A stretch of DNA of 32,044 nt, taken from NCBI GenBank assembly GCA_903851035.1, contig CAINND010000081.1, forward strand, positions 1-32,044. The letters are read 5' to 3'. The translations under genes were made by a program, and so were the position numbers. How positions within the stretch are numbered: position 1 is the first letter of the stretch; each line of letters starts with the position of its first letter. Positions 4,969 through 31,453 of this stretch are shown piece after piece. The notes under the pieces were generated by a model that ran no database searches, was not told the origin of the DNA, and saw only the letters and a program-made list of their open reading frames with translations. The stretch comes from an uncultured Acidobacteriota bacterium (GTDB lineage Bacteria > Acidobacteriota > Terriglobia > Terriglobales > Acidobacteriaceae).

Positions 4969-5272
4969 TCTTTTCAAGCTCCAGGTTCTTTCCTTGCGGG
5001 GTTGTCCCGCCGGAGACCCTTTTTATCTGGTGTTCTGGTTATAGCCTGCAGGCACCTCCTGAAGTGCCTTACCGACCTGCCGGGTTTGCCAATGCCTTCT
5101 TTGTTACAACGGCTGGCCCGGAGCAGTTGCCCCGGCCGTTCCAACACGCACACCTGCGTCAGCGTGTGCCACAGTGAACTGGACGGAAAATCCTAAGCCA
5201 TCCTGATTACGTGTTGCCATCCTCGGGTCTGCCGGAACCAGCGCTCCGGAGCAACCCGCTTGAGTGCAGGAA

Positions 5273-5290
5273 TCTTACATGAATGTAAGA
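5273..5290. repeat. Perfect 18-base inverted repeat
   Basis: TCTTACAT-GA-ATGTAAGA has two perfect 8-base arms with a 2-base centre. It is AT-rich in a GC-rich context and lies about 300 bases upstream of the barrel gene and 100 bases past the infB stop. It looks like a protein-binding operator rather than a terminator, because no T-run follows on either strand. Confidence 0.45.
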
Positions 5291-5356
5291 GGCCAATCGA
5301 GAAAAAAGATGTGGGCGTCCCGGAAAAGAACTGGCTGGCATTAGTTAAGCTGCGGC

Positions 5357-5384
5357 GGCGCCGGAGGAACTCTCCCCCGGCGCC
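5357..5384 (-). terminator. GC-rich hairpin just after infB
   Basis: GGCGCCGG and CCGGCGCC (5357-5364 and 5377-5384) form a perfect 8-base-pair stem starting 8 bases past the infB stop. There is no T tract after it on the minus strand, so it may protect the 3' end or assist Rho rather than act as a classic intrinsic terminator. Confidence 0.4.
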
Positions 5385-5391
5385 ATTCCGC

Positions 5392-8382
5392 TTAGTTCAG
5401 TTGTGTCGCGACCTTCTCGGTCATGAACGCTTCAATCACGTCGCCGGCCTTGATGTCGTTGTAGTTCTGGATGCCGATACCGCACTCCATGCCGGTACGC
5501 ACCTCGCTCGCGTCGTCCTTAAAGCGCTTCAGCGAGCCGATCTTGCCGGTGTAAACCACCACGTTGTCACGCAGCAGGCGTACCTCGGCGTCACGCTTGA
5601 TGGCGCCATCCAGAACCTGGCAGCCGGCAATGGTGCCCACCTTCGGAATGCGGAAGATGTCCTTGACCTCGGCGCGGCCCAGGTTGGTTTCCTTGATCGT
5701 CGGGTCGAGCAGTCCGGTCATGGCCTTCTTCATCTCGTCCTGCAACTCGTAGATGATGGAGTGCAGGCGGATGTCCACCTTTTCCTGGTCGGCCATCTCC
5801 TGCGCCTTGCGCTCCGGACGCACGTTGAAGCCGATGATGATCGCATTCGAAGCCGCCGCCAGCAGCACGTCGCTCTCCGTAATGGCGCCCACCGAGTAGC
5901 GCAGCACCTTCAGCCGCACCTGATCGTTGCTCAGCTTGTTCAGCAGGTCGTTGATGACCTCGACCGAGCCCTGCACGTCGCCCTTCAGGATGATGTCCAG
6001 TTGCTTGGTGCCTTCGTTCTTGATCTGCTGCGCCAGGCCTTCCAGAGAGATGCGCGAGCTCTTCGCCAGCGTCGCCTCGCGTGCCTTGGCCTCGCGGTAG
6101 TCGGCAATTTCGCGGGCGCGTTCGCGCTCGGCCACCACCACAAACTGGTCGCCCGCCTGCGGCAGGCCTTCCATGCCAAGAATCTCCACCGGAGTCGAAG
6201 GACCGGCTTCGTCCAGCACGCGGCCACGATCGTCAAACATGGCGCGCACCTTGCCGAAGATGTTGCCCACCACAAAGTTCTCGCCTGCGCGCAGCGTGCC
6301 GTTGTCGATCAGCACGGTGGCCACCGGACCGCGGCCGCGATCCAGCTTGGCTTCCAGCACGGTGCCGCTGGCCAAACGCTCGGGCGTCGCCTTCAGCTCC
6401 TTCATGTCAGCCACCAGGCAGATCATCTCCATCACCTGGTTCAGGTTGGTGTGCTTCTTGGCGGAAACGTCCACGAAGATCGTGTCGCCGCCCCAGTCTT
6501 CCGGCAGCAGGCCGCGGTCGGCCAACTGCTTCTTCACGCGGTCGGGCTGCGCTTCCGGCTTGTCGATCTTGTTCATCGCCACGATCAAGGGCACCTTGGC
6601 GGCCTTGGCGTGGTCAATGGCTTCCAGCGTCTGTGGCATCACGCCGTCATCGGCTGCAACCACCAGCACCACGATGTCCGTCACCTTGGCGCCGCGGGCG
6701 CGCATGCGGGTAAAGGCCTCGTGACCCGGCGTATCCAGGAAGACGATCTCGCGGCCAAATGCCGGTGAGTTCTCGTCCGTGATCTTCACCTTGTAGGCGC
6801 CGATGTGCTGTGTAATGCCTCCAGCCTCGCCGTCGGCCACGTTCGTCGAACGGATGGCGTCCAGCAGGCTGGTCTTGCCGTGATCCACGTGGCCCATGAT
6901 GGTGACCACCGGAGGACGAGTGACTGTGTTGAACACCGCCTCGTTGTCCTGCTCGATGGCTTCCGCGTCGTAGTCCTGCTGAATCTTGTCCTCAAAGCTG
7001 ATGACCGAGCTTTCGGCGCCGAAGTGGCGAGCCATCTCGCGTGCCAGGTCCTCGTTCAGCGTCTGGTTGATCGTGGCGAAGACGCCACGCGCCAGCAGGC
7101 GTGCGATCAAGTCCTTTGCGCGAATCTCCAGCTTCTCCGCCAGTTCCTTCACGCTCACGCCTTCACTGATCGTGATGCTGCGCGTAATCGGCAGCGGCTC
7201 CACGCTCAGGGAAAGGCGCGGGGGGGGCGTAAAGCCCTTCATCGGCCCTTCCTGCTTGCCTCTGGGAGCCTGATAGCGTTGTCCCGGACGCCGTGACGGC
7301 GCGCCGGCCCTTGCGCCAGGCCGCGGAGCGGTTCCCGGCGGCGGTGCGCCGGCGGCTCCACCCAGCAGTCCTCCCGGACGCGGCGGTCCACCCGGACGCG
7401 TACCCATCCCCGGGCGTCCAGCCATCGGAGGACGTCCACCCGGAGTCGGGGCGCTGCGCGTGGGATGCATGGGACGACGCTCGCCCGGACGCAGCGGCGG
7501 ACGCGAGCCCGGTGCTCCCGGAGCGGCAGGCTGTCCCGGACGCGGGCGCTGGAAGATTGGCTGTCTGCGCACGGGCAGTCCCGTGCGGTTGGCCGGAGGA
7601 TTCTCTGATGGCGGCGGCGCCGTGTACACCGGGCGCGGGCCGGTCTGCGGAACAATCATGCGGCGCGCCGGCACAGCCGGTGCGGCAGGCTTGGCCGGAG
7701 CAGCAGCGGCCGGAGCGGCCGGAGCAGCAGCCGGAGCGGCAGCAGGAGAAACAACCTCTTTGGCGGGCTGGCTCTCCTCTACCGGAGCAGCCGGAGCCAC
7801 GGGTACCACAGGCTGTGCGGCAGCCGGTGGCACAACCGGAGCTGCAGCGGCCTCCACGGCCGGTACCGGAGCGGCAGCCACGGGCGCTGCGGGCGGAATC
7901 ACCACGGCCTTTGGCGGAGCGGGCGGCAAATTGGCGGCACGCGTCTGTGCCACCGACTCCGGGGTCACCATGCGCGGCGCCGGAGCGGCGGGCGGAGGCG
8001 TGGCCGGAGCGGGCGGCTTAACCACCACCGCGGGCTTGTTCACTATCGCCTTCGGCGGGGCCGCGGGCGCAACGGCGGGCTTCGCCGGGGCGGCCGGAGC
8101 ATCTGCCTGCTCCTTACGCGCCAGGATCGCCTTCAGCGCGTCGCCGGGCTTGCTGATCTTCGACAGATCAATCTTCGGGCGGAACTCTTCGCCCCCGGCG
8201 CTCTTGCGTGCCGATGCGCCGCTCATCTCGTGGAAGTACTTGCGGACCTTTACGGCCTCGTCTTCTTCCACCGAGCTGGAGTGCGTCTTCTTCTCCGTGA
8301 CGCCGACTTTTATGAGCACGTCGAGAATCTGTTTGCTCTTAACTTCCAGTTCGCGTGCCAGATCGTTGATTCGAATCTTCAT
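5392..8382 (-). CDS. infB: Translation initiation factor IF-2
   Basis: IF-2 is the GTPase that brings initiator tRNA to the 30S subunit and promotes 50S joining. The 996-residue protein starts with an IF2_N domain ([20 protein letters not shown]). A long Ala/Pro-rich linker with many PAAPAA- and RPGGRPP-like runs follows (about 75-395), then a second IF2_N-like domain ([20 protein letters not shown], about 410-465), the G domain ([11 protein letters not shown] near 496, [14 protein letters not shown]), and domains II-IV to the end. The start is ATG 8382, where the conserved N-terminus begins; the 16 extra upstream codons are not family-like. AAGGA lies about 12 bases upstream. It follows nusA by 159 bases in the rimP-nusA-infB operon. 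The linker is longer than in E. coli IF-2, as is common in high-GC species. Confidence 0.98.
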
Positions 8383-8541
8383 CCGCCGTTCGTTTCCTTC
8401 TTGCCGCACCGTCCCGTTGCTGCGGGGCATGGCGGCCGCGCCGGAGCGCGGTACAGCTTCGGTGCAGCGGCCAGCTTGCTCGTCCGCTGCGTTGTCAGTT
8501 GGCCCCTCAATTCCGGGGCCGGGGAAACTTCTTGTCCAGCC

Positions 8542-10044
8542 TTACTTGTTGCCGGACTCTTCTTCTTTTTCTTCCGCCGCGACTTCTGCTGGCTTCACTG
8601 CTTCGGAATTGCCTTCTGACTCGCCTTCGGTGGCGGCTTCCGCCTCATCCGGCGACTCGACAACAGCCTTGCCCTCAGCCTCGGCTTCCGTGCCCTCGGC
8701 CTCGGCGGCAGCGGCTTCTGTGGCGGCAACTTCAGCGGCGGCGGCGGCTTCCGCGGCCTGTGCCGCTTCCAGCGCGATGAAGTAGTTGTTCACGGCCACC
8801 GAGATGCGTTCCACCACCTCGGCGTCGATGCCAGGGATGGCTTCCAGCTCTTCCGGCGTCATGTCGGCCAGCGACTCCACGGTGCTTACGCCCGCCTCGT
8901 TCAGCTTGACCACCACTTCCTCGCCCAGTTCGCCAGTGAGCATGTCCAGCGATGTCGTCTGGTTGCCGACCAGCGAATTCATCTGCTGTTCGACCTCCTG
9001 GCGCTTCTCTTCCTCGCTCTTGATGTCGATCTTCCAGCCCAGCAGTTTGGCCGCCAGGCGCACGTTCTGCCCCTTCTTGCCAATCGCCAGCGAAAGCTGG
9101 GTGTCGTCCACGATCACTTCCAGGTGCTTCTCGTGGCTGTCCACGATCGAAACACGGCTGACCTTGGCCGGCTGCAGCGCCTTTTCCGCAAAGGTCACCG
9201 CATCCTCGTGGTACTCGATGATGTCGATCTTTTCGCCGCGCAGCTCGCGGATGATGGACTGCACGCGCATGCCCTTCATGCCGACGCAGGCGCCCACGGC
9301 GTCCACGTCCTTGTCGCGGCTCAGCACGGCAATCTTGGTGCGCTCGCCCGCCTCGCGGGCAATCGCCCGGATGACGACCGTGTTGTCGTAAATCTCCGGC
9401 ACCTCTGTCTGGAAGAGGTTGACCACCAGCTCCGGCGCGGCGCGGCTAACGATCACGCCCGGCCCCTTGGTCGCCTTCTCCACCTTGGTGATGACCACGC
9501 GCACGCGCTCGCCCACGGCGAACGACTCCAGCTTGCTCTGCTCCTTGCGGCCCATGCGCGCCTCGGCCTTGCCCAGGTCGAAGATGTAGTCCGGACCCTC
9601 GATGCGCTTCACCGTGGCCGTCACCACTTCGTTCACGCGGTCGTGATACTCGTTAAAGACCGTGTCGCGCTCGGCCTCGCGCACCTTCTGGAAGATGACC
9701 TGCTTGGCCAGCTGTGCGGCAATGCGCCCCAGCCCCTCGGTGGATTTCTCCTCCAGCAGTTCGCCGCCCACAACCGCGTCTTCGCTGATCTTCAAAGCCT
9801 CTTCCAGCGAGATCTGAATCTGCGGATCCTCGATGTCGTCCTCGCTCGGCAGGATTTCCTTCACCGAATACGCGTGGATGACGCCGGTCTCTTTGTCCAG
9901 CACGGCGCGCAGGTTCTCCTGCGTCTTGTAAAACTTCCGCGTGGCCACCACCATGGCATCTTCCACGGCGGCCACTACAACCGCGGGGTCAATGCCCTTG
10001 TCGCGGCTGAGCGTCTCAATCACGTTGTACAGTTCACTTGCCAT
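8542..10044 (-). CDS. nusA: Transcription termination/antitermination factor NusA
   Basis: NusA binds RNA polymerase and nascent RNA and controls pausing, termination and antitermination. The 500-residue product begins MASELYNVIETLSRDKGIDP, the usual NusA N-terminal domain (to about 130), followed by an S1 domain (about 135-200), two KH domains (about 225-345, with VGACVGMKGMRVQSIIREL and LAIGKKGQNVRLAAKLLGW), and a C-terminal helix-hairpin-helix region (LADMTPEELEAIPGID). The last 70 residues are a low-complexity Glu/Ala tail. I use ATG 10044, where the family N-terminus begins and AAAGGTGA/AGGG lies upstream; the longer frame to 10122 lacks similarity. The gene lies between rimP and infB. 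Confidence 0.97.
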   Translation of the reverse strand: MASELYNVIETLSRDKGIDPAVVVAAVEDAMVVATRKFYKTQENLRAVLDKETGVIHAYSVKEILPSEDDIEDPQIQISLEEALKISEDAVVGGELLEEKSTEGLGRIAAQLAKQVIFQKVREAERDTVFNEYHDRVNEVVTATVKRIEGPDYIFDLGKAEARMGRKEQSKLESFAVGERVRVVITKVEKATKGPGVIVSRAAPELVVNLFQTEVPEIYDNTVVIRAIAREAGERTKIAVLSRDKDVDAVGACVGMKGMRVQSIIRELRGEKIDIIEYHEDAVTFAEKALQPAKVSRVSIVDSHEKHLEVIVDDTQLSLAIGKKGQNVRLAAKLLGWKIDIKSEEEKRQEVEQQMNSLVGNQTTSLDMLTGELGEEVVVKLNEAGVSTVESLADMTPEELEAIPGIDAEVVERISVAVNNYFIALEAAQAAEAAAAAEVAATEAAAAEAEGTEAEAEGKAVVESPDEAEAATEGESEGNSEAVKPAEVAAEEKEEESGNK

Positions 10045-27064: not shown

Positions 27065-27949
27065 CTAGTAGAGATGGAAGTTGACTTCCAGGTAGATTGC
27101 AACGGGAACGGGGTTCCCATCTTTCTTGCCCGGATCGAAGCGCCAGTTGCGCGCGGCCTCCACGGCCTTTTCGTCCAGTCCCATGCCCAGCGAGCGAATC
27201 ACGCGCACTTCGTGAATGCGGCCATCCACGCCAATCACCACATCCAGCAGCACCGTGCCCTGGTGTTTGTTCTTGCGGGCTTCGTCGCTGAACTCAGGCT
27301 CTTCCTTGTAAATGATGCGTGGGGGGCTGACGCCGCCGCCGACGCGATAGGCTCCGCCGCCGATGCCACCGCCGTGTCCGGGGCCGACACCGGGGCCGTT
27401 GCCGCTGCCAACTCCGCCACCGCTGCCGCTGCCTATGCCACCGCCAATGCCGACGCCATTCGAGGGGATGCCGTTGAGCTTGCCCTGCGGATCGCCGACC
27501 ACCGTCCCCTGCGGCAACTTGATTTCAGGCGGAACGACCACCGAGGCAGGTACCGCCAGCTTGGGATTCTCCGGCGGGGTCACCGTAGGCGGAGCGAACT
27601 GCTCCTTGCTGAACTTGGGTAACGCGCCCTTGCTGGCCGGGTTCACGTCATGCGAGCCGCCGCCGCCACCGCCGCCCACTTGTTTTTTGGATTGCTGCAT
27701 GACGTAGGGGCTGATGTCCACGGCCTCGCCGGTGATGACCTTCTTAATCTCCGGCGCATGCGTCGCCGACCACGTGCCCAGCCAGATGAGCAGGGCGAGG
27801 ATAACGGTGTTGATGACGAAGGAGGCAACAAACGACTCCTTACGGACCTCGTAGAGGCCGTAGCCATCGCCAAAAAGAGTGGGCATGATCTCATGCCGCT
27901 CGTCGGGCCTGGTCGGGGGAGCCTTTTGCTGATACGGAGGTGTGGGCAT
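27065..27949 (-). CDS. tonB: Energy transducer TonB
   Basis: A 294-residue TonB-family protein. Residues 1-40 are cytoplasmic, one helix spans 42-62 (FVASFVINTVILALLIWLG), then a Gly- and Pro-rich periplasmic linker (about 85-205; a run of seven Gly, then GIGGGIGSGSGGGVGSG), and a TonB C-terminal domain (about 205-294, EPEFSDEARKNKHQGTVLLD and ARNWRFDPG). It would transfer proton-motive force from ExbBD to outer-membrane receptors; no exbB or exbD gene is near. ATG 27949 lies 14 bases after TATACT (27964-27969, minus), so the leader would be only about 7 bases. An ATG at 27886 (MPTLFGDGY) is an alternative start. Terminator shared with purN. Confidence 0.9.
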   Translation of the reverse strand: MPTPPYQQKAPPTRPDERHEIMPTLFGDGYGLYEVRKESFVASFVINTVILALLIWLGTWSATHAPEIKKVITGEAVDISPYVMQQSKKQVGGGGGGGSHDVNPASKGALPKFSKEQFAPPTVTPPENPKLAVPASVVVPPEIKLPQGTVVGDPQGKLNGIPSNGVGIGGGIGSGSGGGVGSGNGPGVGPGHGGGIGGGAYRVGGGVSPPRIIYKEEPEFSDEARKNKHQGTVLLDVVIGVDGRIHEVRVIRSLGMGLDEKAVEAARNWRFDPGKKDGNPVPVAIYLEVNFHLY

Positions 27950-28143: not shown

Positions 28144-29142
28144 TTACGGCACGATGACGCGCAGTGCCCCGGGCACCACCGTAATTTCCGCCGGAGTCTG
28201 GCACAGCGGCTCGCCATCGCCCCACAGGGGCAGCGGCTCCTCGCTTTCCACAAAGACCTGCACTGTGCGTTGATAACTGACCTCCGGCACCTCGATGTGG
28301 CGTCCGGAGTAAATCTTCAAAATGTGGCGCAGAATTTTCGTGATGGGCAGCATCGGCACCCAGCACAGGTCGAGCTCGCCATCATCCATCTGCGCGCGGG
28401 GCAGCATGCGTATGCCGCTGCCGTACACCGGCGCGCTGCCGATGGCGGCAAACAGTGTCGGCCCCTCCAGCACGGTCTCTTTGCCAGCTGCGTCATAGCA
28501 AACCATGCGCACCTGCGGCGCACGATAGCTGGCCAGGGCGCGCAGCGCGGCCAGCATGTATCCTCCGTAGCGGCGCACCAGCCCCGGCATGGGATCGGCC
28601 ACGCGGTTGGTCTCCGCGTCCAGCCCCAGGCCGGCAATGCCCGCTACATAGAGCTGGCTCTTCTGACCGTCGTTCTCCTCGGCCAGGCGCAGGTGGCGGC
28701 GCATGATGACCGGTCCGAGCAACTCATCCGGGCGGGCAAAGCGGCCATCTGTGTCGGCAAAGGTGCGCGTGGGCACCTCGTCCATCTCCTCCGGAGCGCG
28801 CTGCGCCAGCGGACGCACCAGCCCTAGATCGAGCACCCGCACGTTGCGATGGCCCTCCAGATATTTCTTCCAGGCACGCAGTGCGGTGGTCACGTCGCGA
28901 ATGCCGAGGCAGTGGGCAAAGTCGTTGGCGCTACCATGGGGAACCACCAGCATGGGCGTGGCCGAGTTGGCCAGGGCGGGCAGCACGCGATGCACACTGC
29001 CATCGCCGCCAAAGATCAGCGCGGCATCCGGCAGGTCGTTCGGCTCCAGTGCGTTGCCGCGAAAAATATTCGCGCGCTCGTCCCGAAAGGGCTCAACGAG
29101 CTGACTGCTGCGATATGGATGGAGGATGGCTGCGACGCGCAC
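28144..29142 (-). CDS. Diacylglycerol kinase family lipid kinase
   Basis: A 332-residue soluble kinase of the DAGK-catalytic/YegS family, which phosphorylates lipids such as diacylglycerol or long-chain bases. It shows the nucleotide loop GGDGS (45-49), PHGSANDFAHCLG (68-80; the family usually has GTxND), and the C-terminal domain with IGSAPVYGSGIRMLPRAQMDDGELD. The N-terminus VAAILHP matches the family's first strand. The start is GTG 29142, 6 bases after TACAAT, without a ribosome-binding site, so the transcript looks leaderless. It lies 77 bases after the MurU-like gene on the same strand. The substrate lipid is not determinable from sequence; sphingosine-kinase-type activity cannot be excluded. 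Confidence 0.9.
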   Translation of the reverse strand: MRVAAILHPYRSSQLVEPFRDERANIFRGNALEPNDLPDAALIFGGDGSVHRVLPALANSATPMLVVPHGSANDFAHCLGIRDVTTALRAWKKYLEGHRNVRVLDLGLVRPLAQRAPEEMDEVPTRTFADTDGRFARPDELLGPVIMRRHLRLAEENDGQKSQLYVAGIAGLGLDAETNRVADPMPGLVRRYGGYMLAALRALASYRAPQVRMVCYDAAGKETVLEGPTLFAAIGSAPVYGSGIRMLPRAQMDDGELDLCWVPMLPITKILRHILKIYSGRHIEVPEVSYQRTVQVFVESEEPLPLWGDGEPLCQTPAEITVVPGALRVIVP

Positions 29143-29219: not shown

Positions 29220-29981
29220 CTAGACGATCACTCCGCGGCGAAGGTCGTCCTCGGCCTGACGGAGCGCGTCAATCGTGCCCAGGTCGCGCCAGTAGCACCC
29301 CTCGGCGGAATAAGCGGCGACGGCTGCACCCTCGGCGGCCAGGCGCAGGTAGGTGGGGATGATGGGGAAGGCCGCTGCGTCATCCGATTGCAGGCGCAAT
29401 AGCACGGCCGGTGACAGCACATGAATGCCGCAGAAGGCCATCTGCTGCGTCGTGACCGCCATGCGAACCAACTCTTCGGGATGCCCGGCGGTGTGGCGGC
29501 CGCAGAGCAGCCCGGCCTCGTCAAACAAAAGCTGGCGGCTGCCGGCGCGGCGCTGCACGGCCAGTGTAACCAGCGCTCCGCGCTCACGGTGAGCCCGCAC
29601 CATCGCCGCCAGATCCAGCGAACTGATGACATCCACGTTATGCACGAGAAATGGCTCGGCGCTCTTCTCTCCATCGAGCAAAAAGAAATGCGCGGCCTGT
29701 TTTAGTCCGCCGCCGGTGTCGAGCAGTTCGCGCTCCATGGAAAGTTCGACGCGCAAGCCAAGTTCGTCGAGCATGGCTGTGTTCGCGGCGAGGAATTGTT
29801 CAATTTGCGCGGCAAAGTGGTGCGCGTTGACGATGACCTCGGTGACACCCACCCCTGCCAGCCTGCGTAGAGCGATCTCCAGCAGGGTGCGGCCACCCAG
29901 GGTAACCAGTGCCTTGGGGCGCTCATTGGTAAGTGGGCGCAGGCGCGTGCCCAGTCCGGCGGCCAGCACCATGGCCTTCAT
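29220..29981 (-). CDS. MurU-like sugar-1-phosphate nucleotidyltransferase
   Basis: A 253-residue NTP-transferase. It starts MKAMVLAAGLGTRLRPLTNE, the signature of the family, with RPKAL supplying the lysine, then VIVNAHHFAAQIEQFL, ERELLDTGGGLKQA and LVHNVDVISS (metal-binding aspartate). MurU of Pseudomonas makes UDP-MurNAc from MurNAc-1-phosphate in the peptidoglycan recycling bypass; related enzymes use mannose-1-P or glucose-1-P. Its partner there, the anomeric kinase AmgK, is matched here by the upstream gene, whose stop overlaps this start by 4 bases (ATGA), so the two are translationally coupled. The sugar assignment is by context; the fold and activity class are secure. Confidence 0.88.
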   Translation of the reverse strand: MKAMVLAAGLGTRLRPLTNERPKALVTLGGRTLLEIALRRLAGVGVTEVIVNAHHFAAQIEQFLAANTAMLDELGLRVELSMERELLDTGGGLKQAAHFFLLDGEKSAEPFLVHNVDVISSLDLAAMVRAHRERGALVTLAVQRRAGSRQLLFDEAGLLCGRHTAGHPEELVRMAVTTQQMAFCGIHVLSPAVLLRLQSDDAAAFPIIPTYLRLAAEGAAVAAYSAEGCYWRDLGTIDALRQAEDDLRRGVIV

Positions 29982-31453
29982 CGCGGCCAGCGCTCCTGCT
30001 CGCGATGCTGCAACTCCACGCGCACGCCGCGCTCACGCAACTGCCGCGCCGTCTGCTCCGCCAGGTATACCGAGCGATGCTGCCCGCCCGTGCATCCGTA
30101 GCTGACCATCAGCCGCTGGAAGCCGCGGCGGCGATATTCCGCCACGCTGATATCGACCAGTGCCAGCGCGTGCTGCAGGAACTCCGCGACGGTCACGTGC
30201 TGCTCAAGATAGACGGCAACCTCCGCGTCGCGCCCGGTAAGGGACTGGAAGCGCGCCTCGCGCCCGGGATTGGGCAGGCCGCGCGCGTCAAAGGTGTAGC
30301 CTCCGCCGTGGCCGCTCTCATCGGCCACTGGGCCATGGTGATAGCTGAAGCTGGTGACGATGACGGTGAGCGGGTCATCTGCCTGCGCGGGCACCGTTTG
30401 CGGCGTGTCGCCTGCGGCGGCCGTGGTGGCCGCGCCGCTTAGTTCGGCAATCTTCGCATCGCTGGTCAGTTGCGCGCAGGCCTTGGCCAGCGCGGGCAGT
30501 CCGGCGGCCAAAGTGGAGTTCTCCCACAGCCAGCGCAGGTTGCGCAGCGCGTAAGGAACACTCTGCAGGAAGTGGGCTTTACGCTCGTAGTAGCCGCGAT
30601 AGCCGTAAGCGCCCAGGGCTTGCAGGATGCGCACCAGGACCCAGGCGGGATAGTCGGCCAGGAAGCGTCCGCGATCCACCTTCATGTGGCGTGCAAGTGC
30701 CTCAAGATACTGCCCCAGCAGCTCGTCCCGCACGGTGGGCGGCAGGTCGGCCTTGGCATCGAAGAGCAGCGATGCAATGTCGTAGTGCGGAGCCCCGCGG
30801 CGTCCGCCCTGGTAGTCGAGGAAGTACGGGCGGCCCTCACGAAGCATGACGTTGCGCGACTGGAAGTCACGGTAGAGGAAGCACTCCTGCCCGGCGCTGA
30901 GCAGCCGCGAAGTGAGCCGCGCGAAATCCTCCTCCAATGCCTGCTCGTGGAACTCCGCGCCAGCCAGCTTGAGGAAGTAGTACTTGAAGTAGTTCAGGTC
31001 CCAGTGGATGGATTGTGCGTCAAAGGCCGCACGGGGATAGCAGAGTGAGTAGTCAATGCCGCGAGCGGCTTCCACCTGGAAGCGCGGCAACTCCTCAACG
31101 ACGCGGCGGTAGGCCTCGAGCACCTGCGGTGCCAGCTCCGGGCCGCGGCGGTGGGCCGTAAGGTACTGATACAGCGTGGTGTCGCCCAGGTCCTCTTCCA
31201 AGTACGCGGTGCCCGTGGCGGCCTCGGCGTAAATCTGCGGCACGGCCAGGCCATGCTTAAGGAAGTGGCGGGTAAAGGACAAAAACGCAAGGTTCTCCTC
31301 GCGCACGCTGTTGAGGATTCCGATGGCCGAATGCTGTGCGCTGGAGAGGCGCACGATGAGTCGTCCGCTGCCGCCGAGACCGCCCTGCACGGGACTCACA
31401 CTGGTGGCGGGCTGGCCAAAGTGGCGCTCAAAGAGTTGTCGCAAAACTTCCAT
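29978..31453 (-). CDS. AmgK-like aminosugar kinase fused to a RapZ C-terminal domain
   Basis: A 491-residue two-domain protein. Residues 1-330 are an aminoglycoside-phosphotransferase-fold kinase like AmgK: a Gly-rich loop (GGLGGSG, 24-30), the catalytic YRDFQSRN (194-201, Asp196) and the Mg2+ site DYQGG (213-217). An Ala/Thr/Pro-rich linker (335-360) leads to residues 362-485, which match the C-terminal domain of RapZ: VTSFSYHHG, FDARGLPNPG and the pocket GCTGGQHRSVYLAE (453-466). RapZ's own N-terminal P-loop domain is absent. In E. coli this pocket binds glucosamine-6-phosphate. ATG 31453 has GGAG 7 bases upstream and a promoter at 31478; the longer frame to 31507 crosses it. The 4-base overlap with the MurU-like gene supports joint function in cell-wall sugar recycling. 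Confidence 0.9.
   Translation of the reverse strand: MEVLRQLFERHFGQPATSVSPVQGGLGGSGRLIVRLSSAQHSAIGILNSVREENLAFLSFTRHFLKHGLAVPQIYAEAATGTAYLEEDLGDTTLYQYLTAHRRGPELAPQVLEAYRRVVEELPRFQVEAARGIDYSLCYPRAAFDAQSIHWDLNYFKYYFLKLAGAEFHEQALEEDFARLTSRLLSAGQECFLYRDFQSRNVMLREGRPYFLDYQGGRRGAPHYDIASLLFDAKADLPPTVRDELLGQYLEALARHMKVDRGRFLADYPAWVLVRILQALGAYGYRGYYERKAHFLQSVPYALRNLRWLWENSTLAAGLPALAKACAQLTSDAKIAELSGAATTAAAGDTPQTVPAQADDPLTVIVTSFSYHHGPVADESGHGGGYTFDARGLPNPGREARFQSLTGRDAEVAVYLEQHVTVAEFLQHALALVDISVAEYRRRGFQRLMVSYGCTGGQHRSVYLAEQTARQLRERGVRVELQHREQERWPR

Follow-up and report, generated by a model that had tools for sequence, protein, structure and literature searches.

What does the C-terminal domain of RapZ (RapZ_C) contribute when it is joined in one reading frame to a sugar kinase? 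The question is raised by a gene in a 32,044-nucleotide stretch of DNA (the window) from contig CAINND010000081.1 of assembly GCA_903851035.1, an uncultured member of the Acidobacteriota, family Acidobacteriaceae. A preliminary description of the locus had read this gene as an AmgK-like aminosugar kinase with a built-in RapZ_C domain, possibly gated by glucosamine-6-phosphate (GlcN6P), and had assigned it to the AmgK/MurU route of peptidoglycan recycling. The fusion proves to be genuine and to occur widely, as a new arrangement of known domains, and gene order gives good support to its place in an AmgK/MurU salvage module; we propose, more tentatively, that RapZ_C provides this module with a phosphatase. 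The features on which the argument draws are as follows (aa, amino acids).

29978–31453, minus strand: AmgK–RapZ_C fusion gene, 491 aa (translation, Pfam, AlphaFold2 (AF2) model)
30689–31372, minus strand: APH kinase domain, residues 28–255 (PF01636; fold match to 3csv)
30851–30874, minus strand: kinase motif YRDFQSRN, residues 194–201
30803–30817, minus strand: motif DYQGG, residues 213–217
30380–30436, minus strand: low-confidence linker, residues 340–358
29996–30367, minus strand: RapZ C-terminal domain, residues 363–486 (PF22740; fold match to 5o5s)
30299–30307, minus strand: Gly insert of the fusion type, G383–G385
30263–30265, minus strand: G397, equivalent of His190 of Escherichia coli RapZ
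30071–30094, minus strand: CX5RS phosphate loop, C454–S461
29978–29981, minus strand: ATGA overlap of the fusion stop and the MurU start (read from the sequence)
29220–29981, minus strand: MurU-like nucleotidyltransferase gene, 253 aa (PF00483, E 2.6e-24; NF045761)

The fusion open reading frame (ORF) runs from an ATG at 31453 to a stop codon ending at 29978, on the minus strand, a detail that the preliminary description had not given. Pfam assigns its residues 28–255 to the APH family (E 9.8e-15, 55.4 bits against a cut-off of 23.2) and residues 363–486 to RapZ_C (E 2.1e-33, 115.5 bits against a cut-off of 27), and a sequence search of the PDB pairs the kinase part with the phosphotransferase 3csv (E 7.5e-15) and residues 360–488 with the C-terminal domain (CTD) of E. 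coli RapZ, 5o5s (E 5.2e-21). Both identities given in the preliminary description, which had placed RapZ_C at residues 362–485, are thereby confirmed, as is the loss of the RapZ P-loop half: Pfam finds no match to PF03668 in the fusion protein, whose N-terminal half is the APH kinase. The best NCBIfam matches are likewise AmgK for the N-terminal part and RapZ for the C-terminal part, all under the equivalog cut-offs (65.8 bits against 500 for NF045698 and 42.9 bits against 550 for NF045759, the two AmgK models; 101.8 bits against 244 for RapZ). All 42 fusion proteins of our alignment A1 match both Pfam families, and the two AmgK models match 42/42 and 39/42 of them. We rejected chance, a frame artefact, or a sequencing accident as the source of the fusion, since its relatives carry both families throughout.

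The AF2 model of the fusion has a mean predicted local distance difference test score (pLDDT) of 90.5 (91.9 for RapZ_C alone). In fold comparison (VIA), its kinase matches 3csv with Z 28.9 and a root-mean-square deviation (rmsd) of 2.7 over 308 aligned residues; the N-acetylhexosamine 1-kinase 4ocj is matched with Z 20.2 and rmsd 3.5 over 281. The comparison of RapZ_C with the E. coli RapZ CTD that the preliminary description had called for gives Z 20.9 and rmsd 1.4 over 123 aligned residues of 5o5s. Between residues 340 and 358 the pLDDT falls below 50, and linker residues 341–354 have no counterpart in relatives (a gap in 42/43 alignment rows). Within the kinase, R195, D196, R200, and N201 of YRDFQSRN and D213, Q215, and G216 of DYQGG are invariant in 42 fusions; we take these motifs to be the catalytic loop and the metal-binding motif, respectively, as in the APH family, with D196 and N201 as the catalytic residues and D213 as the metal-binding Asp of an APH-fold kinase. 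An anomeric sugar kinase of the AmgK type forms the N-terminal half: its fold and catalytic residues are observed, its substrate is predicted.

The preliminary description could not say how widely the fusion occurs. Scanning contigs with six exact peptide patterns, which is not a census, we reached 44 loci, 38 with the fusion and six with the kinase alone; most of the fusion genomes reached are metagenome-assembled genomes (MAGs), which may be incomplete. Among 199 Acidobacteriota genomes, the full-length fusion is scattered: it occurs in 5/20 of the window's family (the window's own genome counted) and in none of the matches listed outside that family, and the peptide-pattern scan added a single acidobacterial fusion from outside it (L024). 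A draw of 148 Bacteroidota, even rather than a census, contains 20 genomes with RapZ_C: 17 have it in ORFs of 479–524 aa, including the centre of the draw, the already-known fusion genome G217, and three have it split off in ORFs of 134–149 aa. The peptide-pattern scan also reached fusions in Calditrichota, in a single planctomycete bin, and in a bin named Caldisericaceae (L019); this last fusion groups with those of Calditrichota in both of our trees, and the bin may be mixed or misnamed.

Full-length matches are also found in human-associated bacteria, namely Bacteroides finegoldii, Parabacteroides distasonis, Phocaeicola massiliensis, and Prevotella sp. oral taxon 299. The B. finegoldii and P. 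distasonis fusions (L170 and L171, at 4992–6422 in each) are annotated ‘RNase adapter RapZ’ and are followed by a ‘nucleotidyltransferase family protein’; the two proteins reach ∼106 of the 244 cut-off bits on the RapZ model, and with their C-terminal part only. Their records (NZ_OY725912.1 and NZ_OY725790.1), entered as ‘plasmid’ in PLSDB, have housekeeping genes, for example those for fructose-bisphosphate aldolase or glutamate dehydrogenase, near the fusion and may be chromosome pieces. In the literature searched, which covers a minority of subscription papers, none of the listed titles and abstract openings describes the AmgK–RapZ_C fusion, and no paper contains both RapZ and AmgK.

Gene order gives the fusion its context. 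The product of the overlapping downstream gene matches MurU (NF045761) best among the 25 families listed, with E 2.5e-34 and 119.1 bits, below the cut-off of 250. Of the 46 fusion loci with enough flanking sequence, 38 have a MurU-like ORF downstream in the same orientation, counted, without gene calling, as a phmmer match to the window MurU (E < 1e-10) whose stop lies 438–1267 nt past the fusion stop. It is absent downstream at the other eight loci (L006, L008, L009, L014, L015, L026, L027, and L035), and the flanks of L018, L023, and L036 were too short for this count. At L013, a reverse-strand ORF lies between the fusion and the MurU-like ORF. No theme other than MurU recurs among the neighbours (20 proteins scanned). 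With a MurU-like gene directly downstream, the recycling-route placement made in the preliminary description is supported.

In the three Bacteroidota with split forms, RapZ_C is an ORF of its own between AmgK and MurU. At L117 (genome G273), AmgK occupies 7658–8701, RapZ_C 8702–9106, and MurU 9103–9810; at L118 (G337), on the minus strand, AmgK lies at 8918–9973, RapZ_C at 8468–8917, and MurU at 7675–8391; and at L119 (G254), the three lie at 7516–8553, 8608–9027, and 9094–9810. The kinase and RapZ_C ORFs share a frame at each locus, with one in-frame linker stop in G273, one in G337, and four in G254. G337 and G254 are sister sequences in which RapZ_C has the same start, MLHIDIHSFSYKK, and this speaks for a genuine split in both; in G273, the one stop may be an error. 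Because fused and split loci keep the same order, the unit is AmgK–RapZ_C–MurU, whether fused or split.

Our trees are quick searches with many open forks. In the RapZ_C tree, the fused and split forms (45 rows) are separated from canonical RapZ (28 rows) by a branch with 99% support in the Shimodaira–Hasegawa-like approximate likelihood ratio test (SH-aLRT). In the tree of the kinases, the fused forms have the split ones and six Bacteroidales with the kinase alone nested among them. This nesting suggests that splitting and loss may have come later than fusion. The seven fusions from Acidobacteriaceae cluster together (98%). The six Bacteroidales genomes (G235–G240, loci L039–L044) have a close fused-type kinase and no match to RapZ_C or AnmK; this may reflect a joint loss, apparently in one lineage.

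How the pocket of this RapZ_C differs from that of canonical RapZ was assessed with 45 domains (the window's, those of 41 other fusions, and the three split ones, excluding six fusions retrieved later, L111–L116, and also L036, whose contig ends within the domain) and a canonical set of 28 that is not broad, namely 27 Acidobacteriota sequences and E. coli RapZ. E. coli RapZ holds malonate or sulphate by means of H190, T248, G249, H252, and R253 (PMC5737377), and its CTD, in a sensor role, binds GlcN6P with a dissociation constant (KD) of 10 nM (PMC7073468). Seven loop residues, C247, T248, G249, G250, H252, R253, and S254 in E. coli numbering, are identical in 45/45 fused or split and 28/28 canonical domains; in the window fusion, this loop reads GCTGGQHRS (residues 453–461; family form GCTGGxHRS). 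The E. coli ligand pocket is not kept in full: T248, G249, H252, and R253 are retained, and H190 is replaced by Gly in 45/45 fused or split domains, compared to His in 15, Asn in 5, Tyr in 5, and Phe in 3 of the 28 canonical ones, which never have Gly. The GGG insert is likewise present in 45/45 and in 0/28 canonical domains, and the R238 position is Phe or Tyr in 45/45 as compared to Lys or Arg in 28/28. R184 is retained in 45/45, and 35/45 have Lys or Arg where E. coli has K170. The Gly at the H190 position and the GGG insert would suit a ligand other than GlcN6P, and because of these two changes a simple sensor of GlcN6P is not the reading that first suggests itself. The proposal of the preliminary description that GlcN6P gates the kinase is therefore not supported as it was worded, though the phosphate loop is kept.

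CX5R(S/T) is the phosphate-loop motif of cysteine-dependent tyrosine phosphatases, and the loop C454–S461 has this form, its Cys being present in 45/45 domains. The salvage route for N-acetylmuramic acid (MurNAc) runs from AnmK, which yields MurNAc-6-phosphate, by way of MupP, which yields MurNAc, and AmgK, which yields MurNAc-1-phosphate, to MurU, which yields UDP-MurNAc (PMC5371407). Because the module has the last two enzymes of this route together with a phosphosugar-pocket domain bearing a CX5RS loop, we propose that it also contains a phosphatase step. RapZ_C would use the CX5RS loop to take the phosphate off the 6 position of MurNAc-6-phosphate or a closely related compound, the resulting free MurNAc would pass to the attached kinase for conversion to MurNAc-1-phosphate, and the overlapping and probably co-translated MurU-like enzyme would turn this into UDP-MurNAc, with RapZ_C substituting for the HAD phosphatase MupP of Pseudomonas. 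A conserved AmgK–RapZ_C–MurU salvage module in which RapZ_C, by its predicted activity and substrate, takes the step of MupP is a reading that we advance tentatively, at somewhat less than an even chance. An enzymatic role has some published background. Khan and Goerke noted homology between the RapZ pocket and the cysteine-dependent tyrosine phosphatase loop, and considered that RapZ may shed GlcN6P by hydrolysis (PMC7199280). Islam et al. reported that RapZ loses its activity with either C247A or C247S, proposed a catalytic -SH, and interpreted the pocket density of the CTD with GlcN6P as a likely chemically transformed product (PMC9841335).

The closest rival to a phosphatase is an allosteric sensor: RapZ_C would bind a hexosamine-6-phosphate (GlcN6P, N-acetylglucosamine-6-phosphate (GlcNAc-6P), or MurNAc-6-phosphate) without hydrolysing it and would tune the kinase up or down. 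Sensor domains are commonly tied covalently to the enzyme that they control, and the phosphate loop that would hold such a ligand is intact in 45/45 domains. The binding of GlcN6P by the E. coli CTD, given above (PMC7073468), also speaks for such a sensor. Yet the loss of His190 and the gain of GGG in all 45 domains make GlcN6P specificity doubtful, the linker between the two domains is of low confidence in the AF2 model, and a separate RapZ_C ORF of 133–135 aa in three genomes fits an enzyme no worse than it fits a tethered regulator, the cases with one stop needing care. We regard a sensor as a serious possibility that also falls below an even chance, and between the two readings we lean slightly to the phosphatase. 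An assembly domain, with RapZ_C chiefly dimerising the kinase or docking MurU for channelling and having no ligand role, is improbable. It would agree with the self-interaction of the E. coli CTD through strand 179–182 (PMC5737377), of which F181 and D182 are kept in 45/45 domains, and with the MurU-like ORF that so often follows, but it does not account for a loop in which C, T, G, G, H, R, and S are the same in every domain.

The preliminary description had also raised the possibility that RNA or RNase partners differ in the fusion. A further rival is a regulator that binds a small RNA (sRNA) or an RNase in the manner of E. coli RapZ. The fusion shares its domain with E. coli RapZ, whose pocket holds GlmZ (PMC9841335), and it keeps R184 throughout and Lys or Arg at the K170 position in most cases. 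Yet none of the 45 domains keeps H190 or R238, which contact RNA in E. coli; the fusion also has no RapZ N-terminal half, and the RNA-binding domain of E. coli is described as confined to Enterobacteriaceae (PMC7073468). Searches with RapZ_C and PF03668 did not find canonical RapZ in 36/43 fusion genomes, a missing match that is not proof of absence, as in our control Bacillus subtilis, which matches neither PF22740 nor PF03668 despite having YvcJ (PMC7525490). Canonical RapZ is recognized by both domains in the other seven, six Acidobacteriaceae and G220; the window genome itself has a separate, complete RapZ, with P-loop half and RapZ_C, on contig C89, its only PF03668 match. RNA or RNase partners of the fusion accordingly look unlikely, and we have set aside a RapZ-like RNA adapter, which we consider very improbable in view of the replaced contacts and the absent N-terminal half.

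If RapZ_C is the phosphatase of a salvage module, a source of MurNAc-6-phosphate should accompany it. The window genome has AnmK; MurQ was not found in it, the only match being one of 34 bits inside a 627-aa ORF. AnmK occurs in 26 of the 43 fusion genomes. Full-length MurQ occurs in 17, of which 16 exceed the cut-off and the other, G227, scores 263.6 bits. In combination, 18 genomes, the window's included, have AnmK without MurQ, eight have both, nine have MurQ only, and eight have neither. An AmgK-type kinase match is present in 50 of the 148 Bacteroidota, and the 20 genomes with RapZ_C all belong to these 50; AnmK is present in 14/20 with kinase and RapZ_C compared to 0/30 with the kinase match alone (Fisher p 4e-8, from hand-tallied counts and with relatedness ignored). 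We count this contrast, and the fusion genomes that have AnmK without MurQ, in favour of the phosphatase reading. We dropped the idea that AnmK by itself tracks RapZ_C, as it is present in all 20 genomes of the window's family, fusion or not, and in most of the kinase-less Bacteroidota.

Several observations weigh against the phosphatase reading. AnmK was not found in 17/43 fusion genomes, and in the 8/43 that lack both AnmK and MurQ matches, the source of MurNAc-6-phosphate is not evident, many of these genomes being MAGs. Of the 30 kinase-only Bacteroidota, 29 match at just 25%–31% identity and may represent another kinase or few lineages, and the 98 Bacteroidota without an AmgK-type match include 89 with AnmK. 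Acidobacteriota such as G027, G053, and G087 pair an unfused AmgK-type kinase with AnmK. The window genome has six HAD_2 matches, and the better of the two scanned reaches 72 of the 359 cut-off bits of the NCBIfam MupP model and 182 bits for phosphoglycolate phosphatase. This low MupP score speaks for a gap at that step, but the phosphoglycolate-phosphatase-like HAD protein might serve as MupP. Two of the three split cases hang on one stop codon, and two of the three are sisters. Every RapZ variant tested in pull-downs also lost RNA (PMC9841335), and the phenotype of the C247 variants may therefore reflect something other than catalysis. The portions of the literature consulted contain no demonstrated enzymatic RapZ_C and describe that of E. 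coli as a binding domain. The listed fold matches include no tyrosine phosphatase, which settles nothing; the best non-RapZ row, T4 polynucleotide kinase/phosphatase (Z 6.1, rmsd 4.1 over 97), is within background.

Two further genes of the window lie beyond the MurU-like gene on the same strand.

28144–29142, minus strand: lipid-kinase-like protein (YegS and diacylglycerol kinase models, under their cut-offs), after the MurU-like gene
27065–27949, minus strand: protein with a TonB C-terminal domain and a long Gly/Ser-rich stretch

Work on RapZ has treated it as an adapter for RNA and a sensor of GlcN6P, and the question of whether its CTD is an enzyme has been raised in print (PMC7199280, PMC9841335). 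A natural fusion of RapZ_C to a salvage kinase, together with split forms flanked by AmgK and MurU, offers a simple test case for this question with a predicted substrate. A broader proposal, which we hold as somewhat more doubtful than the phosphatase reading of the module, is that RapZ_C is a cysteine-dependent hexosamine-6-phosphate phosphatase, acting here on MurNAc-6-phosphate in peptidoglycan salvage and joined to the kinase for which its product is the substrate, with the sRNA adapter RapZ a descendant or moonlighting relative of a salvage enzyme. If the phosphatase reading is true, the MupP step would be filled in the Bacteroidota and Acidobacteriota that carry the RapZ_C fusion, gut-bacterial proteins named ‘RNase adapter RapZ’ (two seen) would need renaming, and there would be a hint at the origin of sensing by RapZ.

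The system can be compared to four known ones. Like the cysteine-dependent protein tyrosine phosphatases, RapZ_C has a CX5R(S/T) loop between a strand and a helix, as seen in the AF2 model of the fusion; unlike them, it has no assigned catalytic acid, and none of them is among its listed fold matches. With MupP, it would share the pathway step of a MurNAc-6-phosphate phosphatase, whereas MupP is a HAD enzyme, with a reported kcat of 0.88 per s (PMC5371407), and the RapZ_C fold is unrelated to the HAD fold. The fusion resembles AmgK, the MurNAc/GlcNAc anomeric kinase of Pseudomonas, in its APH kinase with catalytic residues and its MurU-like neighbour, and differs from it in scoring far under the AmgK equivalog cut-offs and in bearing RapZ_C. 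The nearest relative of that domain, the E. coli RapZ CTD (5o5s), has the same fold, the same loop C247-T-G-G-x-H-R-S254, and the residues D182, R184, N188, P189, and H276; in contrast to E. coli RapZ, the fusion is without the P-loop N-terminal domain, has Gly at H190, the GGG insert, and Phe or Tyr at R238, and its RapZ_C stands fused to, or beside, a sugar kinase.

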